From Zestosphaera sp. (GTDB lineage Archaea > Thermoproteota > Thermoprotei_A > Sulfolobales > NBVN01), in assembly GCA_038843015.1 (NCBI GenBank), contig JAWBSH010000002.1, positions 1 through 64,000 of the forward strand: DNA of 64,000 nt, in the 5' to 3' direction. Both the position numbers and the translations under genes were made by a program. Under the pieces are notes generated by a model that saw only the letters and a program-made list of their open reading frames with translations, was not told the origin of the DNA and searched no databases. Below are positions 13,028 to 19,248 of the stretch, one piece after another. Position 1 is the first letter of the stretch. Each line of letters starts with the position of its first letter.

Positions 13028-13792
13028 TTACTCAATAATCTTCTTCAGGTTCTTCACAGCAACTCCTAAAGAAATGATAGTGAAGCAAGCCAGAACCAGT
13101 ATTTCCTGGAGCACATCATAAGAGTTACTCACGAGCAACTTCCTTAAAGCCGACACCGTGTATGTGAGCGGGTTAGCTAGAGAGATATACTTGATTACAT
13201 CGGGCATCACCTCAATCGGGTATAGAGCGTTACTAGCAAAGAATAGAGGCATCGTTATAGCTCCTATAATCCCCATAAACCTCTCACGCGTTTTGAGTAG
13301 AGAAGCTATGAGTATTGAGAGGCTTGTGAAGCCCATGCATGCCATGACGAGTATTAAGTAGCCAGCAACCAAGTTCAGCGGGTCACTACTTATTCTAGCG
13401 CCTACGACAGCAGCTGACGCCAAAACTATGACGTACTGTGTTGAGGCTCTAACGCCCCCAGCGAGAGCTCTCCCAACTACTATGTAGCTTCTAGGAATAG
13501 GTGATGTCAAGAGCTTCTTCAGTATTCCCGATTCTCTCTCGAATATCAGGGCTATCCCGTAAGCTAATGATATGAACGTAGAAGACTGAAGTACCACACC
13601 AGGAGTTATGAAAGTCACGTAATCACCAACGCTTGGGAATGCTCTTATCCTGGCCATGACAGAACCGAAGACAGCGACCCAGAGTATCGGTTGAACCGCG
13701 CGCGTGAGTATCTCGAAGGGATCGTGCCTAAGCCTCCTCAACTCCATCTCAGCCATCGAAGCAAGAGACTCTAACTTAGCGGCGCGCATCAC
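13028..13792 (-). CDS. ABC-2 type exporter permease (DrrB/NodJ-like)
   Basis: This 254-residue permease has six membrane helices. Family-typical blocks are ILTRAVQPILWVAVFGSVMA, DYVTFITPGVVLQSS, FERESGILKKLLTSPIPR and PLFFASNALYPIEVMP. It overlaps the stop of the upstream ATPase gene by four bases. The pair resembles drug, polysaccharide or Nod-factor exporters. The substrate is unknown. Confidence 0.9.
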   Translation of the reverse strand: MMRAAKLESLASMAEMELRRLRHDPFEILTRAVQPILWVAVFGSVMARIRAFPSVGDYVTFITPGVVLQSSTFISLAYGIALIFERESGILKKLLTSPIPRSYIVVGRALAGGVRASTQYVIVLASAAVVGARISSDPLNLVAGYLILVMACMGFTSLSILIASLLKTRERFMGIIGAITMPLFFASNALYPIEVMPDVIKYISLANPLTYTVSALRKLLVSNSYDVLQEILVLACFTIISLGVAVKNLKKIIE

Positions 13793-14790
13793 CCACCCCT
13801 CCTAATCATTTTCCTCACACTAACTACTTCTTTCACCCTCCCAGACTCCTCAGTTATCCTCCTACCAGTAAGCTTTATGAAGACCTCGTCAAGCGTTGCT
13901 TCCCGAATCACCACTTCCGAAACCGAATAACCACTAGAGAAAATCTTCTCTAGTATGGCGGGGAGCTTAGTAGGTATGTCACTGACTACCAAGTCTAGGT
14001 ATTCATCATTGAAGCTAGAGATAGTTACTCCATGAATTCCTGAGATGATTTCGCTCAACTTCGAACCATCTACACGACCCTTAAAAACTATGACGACTCT
14101 ATTACCCTCAACAAGCCTCTTCAACTCACTCGGCGTCCCGTGAGTCACTACCTTCCCCTGGTTAAGCAGGGTTACGTAATTAGCGTACTTATCTGCTTCG
14201 TCCATGTAGTGAGTAGCGAAGAATACCGTCACCCCATTCTCTCTTCTAAACTCACTTATCTTGTCCCAGACTAGACTACGCGCTCCCGGATCGAGCCCTA
14301 TGGTAGGCTCGTCAAGGATTAAGAGCTTAGGGTTACGCATTAAAGCGATAGCTATTTCGAGCCTCCTTATCATGCCTCCAGAGTAGGTCCTGACAAGCCT
14401 CCTTGAAGCATCACTCAACCCCATAAAATCAAGCAGTTCTTCAATCTTCTTACTCCTAACTCCTCTCGGAACCCCATATATTTTCGAGTATATGAGCATA
14501 TTCTCATAACCACTCAAGTCACTCCAAAGCGACATTTCTTGAGGTACATAACCAATCAGCTCTCTAACCGCAGAAGACTCTTTGATGACGTCATAGCCAA
14601 AAACTCTTGCGAAGCCACTACTAGGTTTAAGCTGAGTAGTTATGACTCTTATTAGCGTAGTCTTGCCAGCCCCGTTAGGTCCTAACAGAGCGTGGACAGC
14701 ACCCTCCTCAACATCTAGACTCACGCCATCCAGCGCTCTGACCTCACGCCCGTAAACCTTAACCAAGTCCCTCACTTCGACAGCGTTCAA
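13789..14790 (-). CDS. ABC exporter ATP-binding protein (DrrA-like)
   Basis: This 333-residue ATPase has Walker A GPNGAGKTT, the signature YSGGMIRRLEIAIAL and Walker B LLILDEPTIGLDPGAR. A C-terminal extension of about 100 residues follows (from about residue 230) and is typical of the DrrA/NatA group (VVIVFKGRVDGSKLSEII, ATLDEVFIKLTGR). It is the first gene of a two-gene exporter operon. The intergenic stretch to 14910 is AT-rich and serves divergent promoters. Confidence 0.92.
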   Translation of the reverse strand: MNAVEVRDLVKVYGREVRALDGVSLDVEEGAVHALLGPNGAGKTTLIRVITTQLKPSSGFARVFGYDVIKESSAVRELIGYVPQEMSLWSDLSGYENMLIYSKIYGVPRGVRSKKIEELLDFMGLSDASRRLVRTYSGGMIRRLEIAIALMRNPKLLILDEPTIGLDPGARSLVWDKISEFRRENGVTVFFATHYMDEADKYANYVTLLNQGKVVTHGTPSELKRLVEGNRVVIVFKGRVDGSKLSEIISGIHGVTISSFNDEYLDLVVSDIPTKLPAILEKIFSSGYSVSEVVIREATLDEVFIKLTGRRITEESGRVKEVVSVRKMIRRGG

Positions 14791-14909: not shown

Positions 14910-15236
14910 ATGAGTGAAGAGAAGAAAGATGTAGAAGAGTTGCGTGAGGTCTTGAAAGCTGTGTCAGAGTTCCTAACAGGAATTAAAGAGCCTCTAGGCG
15001 ACTTACTCAAGACACTAATAGAGAGTGTGAGTGGTGAGAAACTAGCTAAGGAAGTAAGCACGTTTTATAAGTCTTTAGTAGATAGCGGTGTTGACCCACA
15101 GACAGCTAAAGAGTGGACTGAGAAATTCCTTGACGAGAGGCTGAAATCACTTCCTAGCCTAAGCTTCCTAAAAGATTTAATAAGTGAGAAGCCTAAGATA
15201 AGAAGCCGAGAAGAAGAGGAAGAGAAGAAAGACTAG
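14910..15236 (+). CDS. Small charged helical protein of unknown function
   Basis: This 108-residue protein is almost wholly helical by composition, with a central amphipathic stretch (about residues 10-85) and a C-terminal run rich in Glu and Lys. No membrane segment, Cys or known motif is visible. The ATG follows a Shine-Dalgarno-like GAGGGG by four bases. It is the first of three small same-strand genes (14910-16022). It might bind the next gene product, which also has a helical N-terminus; that is only inference. Confidence 0.6.
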   Translation: MSEEKKDVEELREVLKAVSEFLTGIKEPLGDLLKTLIESVSGEKLAKEVSTFYKSLVDSGVDPQTAKEWTEKFLDERLKSLPSLSFLKDLISEKPKIRSREEEEEKKD

Positions 15237-15277
15237 AAAGTCCTTAAAGCTCTCAACAAGCATCGACAGTGAATTAA

Positions 15278-15724
15278 ATGTCTTCTAGCGACGCGCTTAA
15301 GAGAGTTGAAGAACTACTTGAACACGTAGTCAAGAAGCTAGAGAGGCTTGAGGAGCTACTCACTACGTTAAGTAACGACCCGACCTACGCCATCGCCGTA
15401 GAACTAACACTCTATTTTTCCGTCCCTGCACAGAAAGCAATTAAGTTAGCTAGAGAGTTAGTCCTTTTATTTAAGGGGGTCTCTGAAGTCGACCCGATAA
15501 CTAAGGCAGTACTAGAAGTACTAGCATCCTCAGAAGACGGCATAAGCATATCAGAACTAACTAGGAGAGTCAGGAAAGTCAGAGGTACTGCGTCCAGAAG
15601 AATAGTGACTGAAAGGATTAAGCTTCTAGAAAGTAAAGGATTAGTGCAGGTAAAGAGGTCCGGCAACGTAGCTAGAGTCTACTTAAGGAGGAACTCAGAT
15701 AGTGAGGGTCTCAAGAATAGCTAA
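15278..15724 (+). CDS. Winged-helix DNA-binding protein with N-terminal coiled coil
   Basis: This 148-residue protein starts with a heptad-rich helix (residues 5-32, ALKRVEELLEHVVKKLERLE). It ends with a winged-helix domain (about residues 65-142): AVLEVLASSEDGISISELTR, a recognition-helix region and KLLESKGLVQVKRSGNVARVY as the wing. It resembles MarR/ArsR-like archaeal regulators and probably dimerises through the coiled coil. Its end overlaps the next gene by 23 bases. Confidence 0.68.
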   Translation: MSSSDALKRVEELLEHVVKKLERLEELLTTLSNDPTYAIAVELTLYFSVPAQKAIKLARELVLLFKGVSEVDPITKAVLEVLASSEDGISISELTRRVRKVRGTASRRIVTERIKLLESKGLVQVKRSGNVARVYLRRNSDSEGLKNS

Positions 15725-16022
15725 GATAGCTGAGTACACCTTAATAGCTCATCAGATACTCCTAGTACTGCTCGCTCTAGCAGACTTAGGACTTTACATT
15801 TTCTTCTACTTAACACTAATTAAGCCAGCCCTACTACTTAAGTTTCGCGTGAGGCTGTTCCTAAGCGGCCTGCCAAAAGACCTCAGAAACTCCGCGTACA
15901 GTCTCTATAGGTCTTACGTGAAGACAAACCTTGATATCAACTACATCCCCAAACTATTACTTCTTTTCTACGATATTAGAGATAAGTCAAGTCATGACAA
16001 AATCAACGACATTTCTAGCTAG
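15702..16022 (+). CDS. Small membrane-associated protein of unknown function
   Basis: This is a 106-residue protein starting at GTG inside the end of the winged-helix gene. It has two closely spaced hydrophobic segments (about residues 13-45) followed by a basic, helical cytosolic tail. The segment YTLIAHQILLVLLALA loosely resembles YVFIAHKVLLGFSLIA in the small protein at 22380-22658, so the two may be distant relatives. Translational coupling to a regulator suggests a membrane sensor or anti-regulator (inference only). Confidence 0.5.
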   Translation: MRVSRIAKIAEYTLIAHQILLVLLALADLGLYIFFYLTLIKPALLLKFRVRLFLSGLPKDLRNSAYSLYRSYVKTNLDINYIPKLLLLFYDIRDKSSHDKINDISS

Positions 16023-16034
16023 CAGGAAGCAATA

Positions 16035-16042
16035 TTTATAAA
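16035..16042 (+). promoter_or_regulatory. TATA box in front of a short leaderless frame
   Basis: TTTATAAA lies about 30 bases upstream of the ATG at 16069. This is the spacing expected for a leaderless archaeal transcript. Confidence 0.45.
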
Positions 16043-16068
16043 GTGATGATAGTAAACGTTGGTACTTC

Positions 16069-16254
16069 ATGGTACGTAAGAAGCTCTCTCATCATAAGCA
16101 AGGTTTTGTCACTTTCAGCGAGTTTCTTGATGAAAGTAAAAGGCTTAAAAACTATATTGTATCCGATTGTGCCCGAGTTAAAGCTATCAATAGCCTTGAG
16201 ATTTCTGGTCGCAGCAAGCTCGTAATCATTGGAGTAAGTGTATTTACTAAGTAA
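16069..16254 (+). CDS. Possible 61-residue protein (hypothetical)
   Basis: This short frame is supported mainly by a well-placed TATA box. The product is basic at the start (VRKKLSHHKQGFVTFSEFLD) with a short hydrophobic C-terminus. I recognise no family. A second frame overlaps it at 16043-16225, so one or both may be chance. It may also be the remnant of a larger gene. No other gene fits the 318 bases between 16022 and 16340. The rest of that gap holds the promoter of the beta-propeller gene (TATAAAG near 16297-16304). Confidence 0.3.
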   Translation: MVRKKLSHHKQGFVTFSEFLDESKRLKNYIVSDCARVKAINSLEISGRSKLVIIGVSVFTK

Positions 16255-16339
16255 TATGTAGTTAATGATGCATTAATATCTTGGGAATCAAAGACTTATA
16301 AAGGTTTACGTAAATAGTAAATAACGAGTTGAGGGCGCT

Positions 16340-17809
16340 TTGCGCTCAATACCGTGTATCCGTCTAGGTCTAATATTAGCATTAACTTCGTTCATGTTAT
16401 TGACATTGTTTACTATTTATGCATCCGTTCAGTTGGTGCATACGATCTTATGGTCTGTGTTAATACCAGACACCACCATCTGGTTTATCAGTTACATCTT
16501 TAGATACAACAGCTTCGGCGGACCTGCTCTTTATGTGGTTCATTCCAATGGAGTTAACGTTTACACCTTTAACGGAGATTTGATTTGGCGTTTGAATACC
16601 TCTACAACGCCCATAGTTCAGCACATTTTCACCACAGACTATAAAACAGACATTATAGTATGTGATGGTAATATCGTGTCTAGAAGGGATTCTTCGAATG
16701 GTCAGGTAGTTTGGCAGAAAGTACTAGGATCTCAAATAACAGCGCTGTATTCTTATGAAGACGTAAACAATGATGGAACTTGGGACGTGTTAGTAGGGGA
16801 TAGCAACGGTAATGTATATGTGCTCAACGGCGTCAACGGAAACATCATATGGTCTAAAAATCTCGGTGCATCACCAGTAAACGGGGTTTCTTTCCTGAGA
16901 ATTTCAAATACGTTAGGAGTCGTTGCGTACGCGGGTAAGGGTCCTTCAAAAGTTGACGTTTATCTTCAGGACGGAACCTTGTTGTGGTCAAAGAGCATTA
17001 GCTCCGGTATAAGTATCGTGTTCTGGCCAAGGACGTATATTGCTACATATTTCGATTTAAACGCTGATGGCTACGACGAGATAGCTTTAATAACAGATTC
17101 AGCGATCATGGCTTTCAACGGTCGAACAGGAGATGAACTCTGGACAAAGGCGTTGAGTGTCAGACCCCATACTATCTGGAGAGTTAGCGAAGATCTTGAC
17201 GGGGACGGCATATATGACTTGATAGTTGGGACAAGACAAGGTATTTACGCGGTTTCAAGCGCGTCTGGCTCAACAGTCTGGTACCTTAATCTCAACTATA
17301 TTTTCTTTATAGACCCTTACTATCAAGATATAGATAAAAACGGATACTCAAACGCTGTTGTTGCATCTGACAATCTATACATAATAGACTTAAAGCAAGG
17401 GAATATCACATGGACATTCAATGAGATAAGTCCGACAGCTGTTCAACTCACCTGGATCACTGGTAGTTTTAACAGAAATCAGGTAGTCGTCGGTTCCGGA
17501 AACGGGGACCTAGTCATGATTGCGCTTGAAGCCACATCGGAAACTACTACAGCGACTACAATAACTAGGACCATCACCATAACAGAAACTACTACAGCAA
17601 CGCAATCCTTTTATTTCACAATTACTAATACCGTCACATTTACTCAGCCAGCTACGATCACCACCACTCATCTCTTATCGTCAGAGATAACGAGAACTGT
17701 GATGCCAACTTTAACTGACCAACAAGTAACGTTGCAAACATATCTTATAGCATTTGCTATGATCGTTTCGTCGACTATTATAGCATTATTAATCAGGAGA
17801 GGGGGATAG
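16340..17809 (+). CDS. Membrane-anchored beta-propeller (FG-GAP/PQQ-like repeat) surface protein
   Basis: This 489-residue protein begins at TTG. An N-terminal hydrophobic helix (about residues 9-35) is followed by a beta-propeller built from about six to seven blades. Several blades carry Asp-rich calcium-type loops (DVNNDGTWD, DLNADGYDE, DLDGDGIYD, DIDKNGYSN) and the Trp-containing PQQ-like signature (NGNIIWSKNL, TGDELWTKAL, QGNITWTFN). A Thr-rich stalk (about residues 405-455) and a C-terminal membrane helix (about 465-485) close the protein. The propeller should face outside. It is six bases upstream of a membrane-anchored kinase gene, which suggests one signalling unit. Confidence 0.8.
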   Translation: MRSIPCIRLGLILALTSFMLLTLFTIYASVQLVHTILWSVLIPDTTIWFISYIFRYNSFGGPALYVVHSNGVNVYTFNGDLIWRLNTSTTPIVQHIFTTDYKTDIIVCDGNIVSRRDSSNGQVVWQKVLGSQITALYSYEDVNNDGTWDVLVGDSNGNVYVLNGVNGNIIWSKNLGASPVNGVSFLRISNTLGVVAYAGKGPSKVDVYLQDGTLLWSKSISSGISIVFWPRTYIATYFDLNADGYDEIALITDSAIMAFNGRTGDELWTKALSVRPHTIWRVSEDLDGDGIYDLIVGTRQGIYAVSSASGSTVWYLNLNYIFFIDPYYQDIDKNGYSNAVVASDNLYIIDLKQGNITWTFNEISPTAVQLTWITGSFNRNQVVVGSGNGDLVMIALEATSETTTATTITRTITITETTTATQSFYFTITNTVTFTQPATITTTHLLSSEITRTVMPTLTDQQVTLQTYLIAFAMIVSSTIIALLIRRGG

Positions 17810-17815
17810 ATTTAG

Positions 17816-19189
17816 TTGGATAGCAATCTCGTGATTATTTTAGCGGCCATTATTTCGTCATTAATAATAATTATGTCAGCTATTACCAAGAAACCCAGAA
17901 ATATTCGCTCACTCAAGAATAAAAGTGTAGAACCATCTAAGTCTTTGCTTAGATCTCCAGTAACTTCTCAGGTAGTGACTCAGGAAACCGAGTACTTTGA
18001 GAGGATATTTAAAACCGAGAAAAACACCTATAGACTCATTCAGCTAGTGAGTGGAAAGGAATATACAGAAGTGTGGAAAGCTTTAGACAAGCTAGGAAAA
18101 TCGGGAAAAACCGTAGCTATAAAGATCTATAAAAAAGGTGAGGGAAGTAACAAGACCTTCGTTACGGAATTGAGGAAGCTGACTCAGCTCTTAGAAAAGC
18201 TCGGAGACAACCCATATGTATCAAACTACATAGTAAAGATATTAGATTTTGGAACTAGTCCAGCCCCGTATATAGTGATGGACTACTACCCAGAAAACTT
18301 GAGGAGTCTCACCAAGCGAGGTGTCTCGCACAAAGACTTAGTTAAGATTATGGCAAGAATTGCTAAGGCTCTGGCTTACGCTAGTGATGTTGGTGTTAAT
18401 CACGGAGACTTAAAACCTGAAAACATCCTTATCAAGGAGGAAGACGGCAAATATTATCCAGTACTTGCAGATTGGGGAGGAGGTTTTACGCCATGCTACG
18501 CTGCACCTGAGATCTACAAATACGGTGAAAAAATGCTTACGGAGAAGAGCGATGTGTGGAGTTTTGGGGTTATTCTATACGAGGTCTTGACACAGAATAG
18601 ACTTTTCAAGAACCTCACCGAATATGAAAAGCGGATAGAGAATGACGTTAGAGTAGAAATTCCTCACAATCCGAGACTCGAAGAGCTCGTAAATAAGTGT
18701 TTACGTAAAAATCCCGGTGAGAGACCGAGCTTTAGAGATATCTACGGAGAACTTTACGATTATTTGAGAACCGAGCTTAGAACAATTATCTCACAGGGCA
18801 CGCGAGATCTTAAAACAACTCTTGAACTTTTTGAATCCCACATAGTATTGAGAGACAGTATCAGTGCAAAAGAAGAACTAAAGAATCTTAAGAGATATGA
18901 TTTGGACCCTGCTGTCTACAAAATACTTACTAGATCTGTTCATATAGTTAGGAAACTTGAAAATAAGACTGCAGATCCGAATGAGATCATATCATACTTT
19001 AACTATGTTCTCTCCTCAGCTAGTAAGGACACAAAGCTCAAAAAAATGCTAGAGAAAGAACGATGTATAAAGGAATATCTCTTACCTATAGAAAGATATG
19101 GGAAGTGGTCAATGATTAGCCTATGGAGAGACGTAAGTGAATGCATTCATAGAATAGTAGAGGTGTTAGAAGATTACATTAATATATAG
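17816..19189 (+). CDS. Membrane-anchored eukaryotic-like Ser/Thr protein kinase
   Basis: This 457-residue protein starts at TTG after GGAGAGGGGG. An N-terminal membrane helix (about residues 4-24) is followed by a linker and a protein kinase domain (about 75-320). Visible motifs are VAIKIYKKG (ATP-binding Lys), a catalytic loop HGDLKPENIL in place of HRDLKPEN (a non-RD kinase), DWG in place of DFG, APE in CYAAPEIYKYG and DVWSFGVILYEVLT. The glycine loop is poorly conserved. A C-terminal helical region of about 135 residues has no known domain. Its tight coupling to the propeller gene suggests that the kinase domain reports on an external ligand. Neighbouring phosphatase or FHA genes are absent. 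Confidence 0.88.
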   Translation: MDSNLVIILAAIISSLIIIMSAITKKPRNIRSLKNKSVEPSKSLLRSPVTSQVVTQETEYFERIFKTEKNTYRLIQLVSGKEYTEVWKALDKLGKSGKTVAIKIYKKGEGSNKTFVTELRKLTQLLEKLGDNPYVSNYIVKILDFGTSPAPYIVMDYYPENLRSLTKRGVSHKDLVKIMARIAKALAYASDVGVNHGDLKPENILIKEEDGKYYPVLADWGGGFTPCYAAPEIYKYGEKMLTEKSDVWSFGVILYEVLTQNRLFKNLTEYEKRIENDVRVEIPHNPRLEELVNKCLRKNPGERPSFRDIYGELYDYLRTELRTIISQGTRDLKTTLELFESHIVLRDSISAKEELKNLKRYDLDPAVYKILTRSVHIVRKLENKTADPNEIISYFNYVLSSASKDTKLKKMLEKERCIKEYLLPIERYGKWSMISLWRDVSECIHRIVEVLEDYINI

Positions 19190-19248
19190 TGAAACACTAA
19201 AGCTATCCCAAGACAAATAACTCTCTGCTGTTTCTTAATAAACGTTAA

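Follow-up and report, generated by a model that had tools for sequence, protein, structure and literature searches.

Receptor Ser/Thr kinases with a beta-propeller as ectodomain are known in bacteria, as exemplified by PknD of Mycobacterium tuberculosis, in which the extracellular part is a six-bladed propeller (PMC3601408, PMC2877116), and prokaryotic kinases linked to WD40 or PQQ domains have already been described (PMC2877116, PMC1262709). In archaea, the route leading from an outside signal to phosphorylation inside the cell is little known. One report proposes that the membrane ePKs of Sulfolobus (SiRe proteins) sense outside signals (PMC5682000), and our literature search, kept mostly to papers available without subscription, revealed no description in archaea of a receptor kinase whose ectodomain is a propeller, either fused or split.

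Here, we analyzed a stretch of 64,000 nucleotides from Zestosphaera sp. (contig JAWBSH010000002.1, positions 1 to 64,000; hereafter the window), in which positions 16340-19189 hold two + strand ORFs, a propeller gene followed by a kinase gene, with six bases between the stop of the former and the start of the latter. The pair is considered below as a candidate split receptor kinase.

A surface propeller and a membrane kinase gained in one block

The first ORF (16340..17809, + strand) encodes a surface beta-propeller protein of 489 aa, matched by the Pfam families PQQ_2 (PF13360, 8.1e-17; 62.1 bits, cut-off 27.6) and FG-GAP (PF01839, 1.3e-07; 31.8 bits, cut-off 22.1). From its N-terminus, the protein is composed of a signal/TM helix (hydrophobic residues 3-22 by hydropathy), the PQQ/FG-GAP propeller, a Thr-rich stalk (17540..17725; residues ~401-463, 41% Thr) and a C-terminal membrane helix predicted by hydropathy from residue 463 (17726..17794), which is followed by an RRGG tail. 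A motif scan located four DxDxDG-type calcium-like loops within the propeller (16760..17344; residues 141, 239, 285 and 330), whereas shuffling the protein gave a mean of 0.03 loops of the form Dx[DN]x[DN]G, and these calcium-type loops together with the repeats scoring over cut-off place the protein among the FG-GAP/PQQ surface propellers. It is the sole PQQ_2 match in the genome.

The second ORF (17816..19189, + strand) encodes a membrane-anchored Hanks-type kinase of 457 aa that is devoid of an extracellular domain. An N-terminal TM helix (17825..17884; residues 4-23 by hydropathy) is directly followed by the basic stretch KKPRNIR, and the protein is predicted to lie N-out with the catalytic domain inside. 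The kinase domain (18023..18751; residues ~70-312 by profile and motif scan) matches PF00069 over residues 85-310 with 107.1 bits (cut-off 31.7; 1.4e-30). Structure predictions of the two proteins, run without alignment and of low confidence (mean pLDDT 45 and 47), contain the propeller helix at 464-487 and the kinase helix at 3-23, and suggest that the C-terminal tail of the kinase (18773..19186; residues ~311/320-457) is probably all-helical. This tail has no family match, and no convincing relative was found in 211 genomes of the order (one match, E 0.008). The protein is the sole conventional Hanks kinase of the genome, the other four kinase matches being read as Bud32-, RIO1-, RIO2- and atypical kinase-like.

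Up to this point, the description agrees with that of the first-pass annotation, which had reported the ORFs, the six-base gap, the propeller with its calcium-like loops, stalk and membrane helix, as well as a membrane-anchored kinase with HGD and DWG motifs and an unassigned C-terminal region. A degenerate Gly-rich loop and a short activation loop were absent from it. The kinase motifs are VAIK at residues 100-103, ELRKLT at 118, HGDLKPEN at 196, DWG at 219 and APE at 230, so that the catalytic Lys, the Glu, the HGD Asp, the Asn and the DWG Asp are all kept. The GxGxxG loop, by contrast, is degenerate (LVSGKEYTEVWKA, versus YVGRGGFARVFKA in a relative), and the DWG-to-APE segment counts 14 residues versus 25-30 in the relatives where it could be measured (50 in one of them). 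Because of these two losses, the activity of the kinase is uncertain, and the enzyme may be inactive. Both would be expected of a pseudokinase receptor, in which a non-catalytic domain acts as an ATP-dependent or passive scaffold recruiting an effector to the surface propeller; the retention of all five catalytic residues argues against this reading, as does the occurrence of non-RD and DWG motifs in other archaeal kinases (e.g. L070|2, with HGD and DWG), and we consider it unlikely.

Comparison with congeneric genomes (G001 to G004) indicates how the pair came to its place. In G001 and G004 the flanking genes are collinear with the window, with mostly 76-88% protein identity (55-70% for a few), and both genes are missing from the locus as one block; the flanking stops lie 3,226 bp apart in the window versus ~30-71 bp in these two genomes. 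Since the flanks are collinear and both genes are missing, the comparison establishes the propeller and kinase genes as a single block of ~3.2 kb (16023..19248), most simply gained in the window lineage. The left edge falls at ~15925-16022, inside or just 3' of the end of the 15702-16022 gene, and the right edge at ~19248, at the aminotransferase stop. The outgroup G002 (67% versus ~81% for the others) is also without the pair. This locus comparison rests on G001, G002 and G004, with G003 covered by protein search, and that search found neither protein in G001-G004. The acquisition that had been suggested from base composition thus stands on gene content. In G002 this gap is occupied not by the propeller-kinase block but by a transporter-like membrane gene (L140:7746-9053), and it may take up genes repeatedly.

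The composition itself fits acquisition and decides nothing: the AT-richness noted earlier is borne out by the kinase, whose GC content of 38.6% is the lowest among the 46 window genes (mean 44.9%), and by the propeller (41.5%), while the codon usage of both genes is ordinary. No convincing target-site repeats flank the block. Upstream of the propeller gene, a TATA-like box (TTATAAAG, 16296..16303, + strand) and a GAGGG Shine-Dalgarno-like stretch (~16331-16335, + strand) can be read, which suggests that the pair has its own promoter.

An origin of the pair in a virus, phage or plasmid was considered and rejected, the viral collection having returned nothing, the phage matches being distant kinases of 27-30%, and the best plasmid match, a kinase of Thermococcus peptonophilus, having no recognised propeller beside it. 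We also evaluated whether the block could be a small defence island with the kinase as an anti-virus effector of MADS or PD-T4-6 type, which would agree with its recent gain and with a score of 153 bits for the PADLOC mad6 model. This model is not specific, since unrelated archaeal kinases scored up to 242 bits in a control; the NCBIfam MAD6 score of 83 bits lies below the cut-off of 460, and neither MADS partner genes, nor any other gene in the block, nor a viral relative was found. Following the control, the defence reading, which we find barely credible, was dropped.

Immediately before the block lies an older, conserved trio (14910-16022) encoding a 108-aa protein, a winged-helix protein (wHTH) and a small TM protein. 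The winged-helix gene had been put forward as a distant output of the pair. G004 and G002 have the trio but not the pair, and G001, likewise without the pair, has part of the trio; across the order it recurs beside unrelated genes, and 57 of the 117 sampled genomes contain wHTH relatives. An output role is hence unlikely, and the trio's independence from the pair led us to rule this candidate out.

Distribution of the propeller and the Thermosphaera cluster

The kinase was searched in 214 genomes of the order and the propeller in 197, each together with 398 genomes of the phylum, and none of these genomes contains a second case of the two genes side by side. The adjacency is also absent from 84,980 species genomes at pattern-level sensitivity, among which the kinase has no relative by pattern. 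Conservation of the two genes as neighbours, proposed as a check on their coupling, is accordingly not what the searches returned.

The sole close relative of the window propeller is encoded in Thermosphaera sp. Bin P8 (G122; JAJHRV010000012.1, i.e. G122:C9, L069/L187), where it is cut by the contig end. The two propellers form a clade with a support of 100/99, apart from 14 other propellers compared. On the Thermosphaera contig, the propeller gene lies 4 kb from, and on the same strand as, a gene for a kinase with an N-terminal TM helix and no ectodomain. The gene between the two, whose reading frame is broken, encodes a surface protein with a Thr stalk and a TM helix, and a further Thr-rich membrane protein is encoded on the same strand, all within ~7 kb. 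The chance of finding a kinase this near in Thermosphaera is ~2%, as estimated from two kinase matches in ~1.2 Mb. Both members of the propeller clade are therefore encoded near a TM kinase lacking an ectodomain, which we take as support for a receptor function.

An alternative is that two independent membrane proteins travel together, the propeller as a stalked adhesin or ligand-binding protein and the kinase signalling alone or with another partner. This would explain why the pair is conserved nowhere else in the genomes searched, and it is in line with the commonness of kinase-free stalked propellers in the order, none of whose 14 loci has an adjoining kinase. Those 14 propellers, however, constitute a separate clade, and the proximity of both members of the window clade to ectodomain-less TM kinases speaks against independence, as does the six-base spacing of two genes that are each the only one of their kind in the genome. 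We regard independence as somewhat unlikely.

The same 14 propellers bear on another partner. Twelve of them adjoin an ABC-2 ATPase and permease (L071, L085, L086, L089, L090, L092, L093, L094, L095, L096, L097 and L099), mostly in divergent orientation, and several of the ATPases linked to stalked propellers end in a Cys-rich tail. These conserved, ABC-2-linked propellers occur in many genomes of the order. At one locus (L091:4278-8292, G165), a propeller of the broad family adjoins multihaem cytochrome-like proteins with several CxxCH motifs. Since an ABC pair is encoded 1.5 kb away in the window (13028-14790), the window propeller could be a member of this ABC-2-linked surface family, with the transporter as its real partner. 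Yet it falls outside that clade (100/99), and the window permease shares just 23-25% identity with the propeller-linked permeases, near background, and is kept in G001, G002 and G004 without any propeller. The separate clade and the non-orthologous permease largely refute this reading, which is very improbable.

Fused receptor kinases of the order and the kinase tree

In this order, receptor kinases that carry an ectodomain prove not to be rare once sought. Four single-chain proteins contain a signal peptide, an extracellular propeller of WD40/PQQ type, a TM helix and a C-terminal kinase, namely L072:4850-8953 (G078), L108:1529-6823 (G053), L083:14704-17781 (G038) and L106:169-3510 (G074), and they fall in two kinase clades. 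The Thermosphaera kinase groups with those of L108, L106 and L083 at 100/100, and the occurrence of fused and split forms within one kinase clade supports the view that the propeller and the kinase of the window act jointly. The kinase of the pair lies outside this clade, as an orphan on a long branch with no supported sister. The earlier suggestion that the propeller is the sensor of the kinase is thus favoured indirectly, by the Thermosphaera cluster on the one hand and the single-chain propeller receptors on the other; in none of the genomes searched is the exact pair conserved.

The best matches of the window kinase are a plasmid kinase of Thermococcus peptonophilus, which is its best BLAST match, and a soluble protein of G110 that fuses a propeller to a kinase. 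On the Thermococcus plasmid (NZ_CP014751.1, L186:8440-12067), the membrane kinase forms a cassette with a Vps4-like AAA ATPase and a PP2C phosphatase, in which no propeller was recognised.

Other ectodomains are found on the receptor kinases of L075, L076, L081 and L082, and some receptor kinases of the order are encoded near FHA-like proteins. In G186 (C1:742000-779900, L077 and L088), at least five Hanks-type kinases are encoded within ~30 kb, and in their midst lies the gene of a large, receptor-like membrane protein with a Thr stalk.

A candidate split receptor and its known counterparts

Taken together, these results are consistent with a model in which the pair is a split, PknD-like receptor protein kinase made up of an outside sensor and an inside switch, a reading whose prospects we judge evenly balanced. 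It is favoured because the two genes share a strand with six bases between them and were gained as a single block, because no other PQQ_2 propeller or conventional Hanks kinase is encoded in the genome, and because the Thermosphaera propeller is encoded near a membrane kinase whose clade includes propeller-TM-kinase chains; PknD provides a precedent. Against it count the adjacency of the exact pair in no second genome searched, the position of the window kinase outside the Thermosphaera kinase clade together with the WD40-like nature of the fused propellers, and the loss of the Gly-rich loop and of most of the activation loop.

In this split receptor, for which we infer topology, physical pairing, direction of the signal, kinase activity and ligand, the propeller would stand outside the cell on its Thr-rich stalk, with one or two membrane helices as its anchor, and bind a ligand, with calcium in the DxDxDG loops. 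A helix of its own would fix the kinase to the inner side of that membrane; the prediction of propeller outside and kinase inside rests on hydropathy and flanking charges. When the propeller binds its ligand or clusters, the signal would travel laterally between the membrane helices and bring the kinase domains together, a step analogous to that proposed for the ectodomain of M. tuberculosis PknD within one chain, and the helical tail of the kinase may dock a substrate or partner. With the activation loop almost gone, control of the kinase would operate through dimerisation, the juxtamembrane stretch or the helical tail, not through loop phosphorylation, or else the domain would serve as a pseudokinase scaffold. 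We further propose, as plausible if short of probable, that the pair represents a receptor kinase of two membrane proteins with reduced control loops and lateral signalling between helices, which is passed from lineage to lineage as a cassette of two genes. The pair, the fused proteins and the Thermosphaera cluster point to a propeller-based receptor kinase family in the order, in both fused and split form, of which the pair is a small, testable two-gene unit.

Among the systems with which the pair can be compared, the ABC-2-linked stalked propellers of the order share the signal, the FG-GAP/PQQ propeller, the Thr-rich stalk and the C-terminal TM helix, but belong to a separate clade and have an ABC transporter, not a kinase, as partner. 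The Sulfolobus proteins SiRe_2056, SiRe_0101, Saci1041 and Saci1181 are likewise Hanks-type kinases with TM helices, whereas no propeller or ligand-binding partner is named for them in the accessible parts of the two reports (PMC5682000, PMC5300886). The fused receptors stem from the same order and have the same predicted succession of signal peptide, outside propeller, TM helix and inside kinase; they differ in being one chain, in their WD40-like propeller of another family followed by repeated beta domains, and in their kinases, which belong to two other clades. The Thermosphaera cluster has a propeller of the same clade, an ectodomain-less kinase with N-terminal TM helix and Thr-stalked membrane proteins on the same strand, but its genes are 4 kb apart with a broken surface gene between them, and its kinase is from another clade. 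Lastly, PknD resembles the pair as predicted here in its extracellular propeller sensor, single membrane passage and inside Hanks-type kinase, and differs from it in that it is one chain with the kinase first, whose six-bladed propeller belongs to another family and whose kinase loop is ordinary, whereas in the window, sensor and kinase are two proteins encoded by two ORFs rather than one polypeptide, and the kinase loops are reduced.
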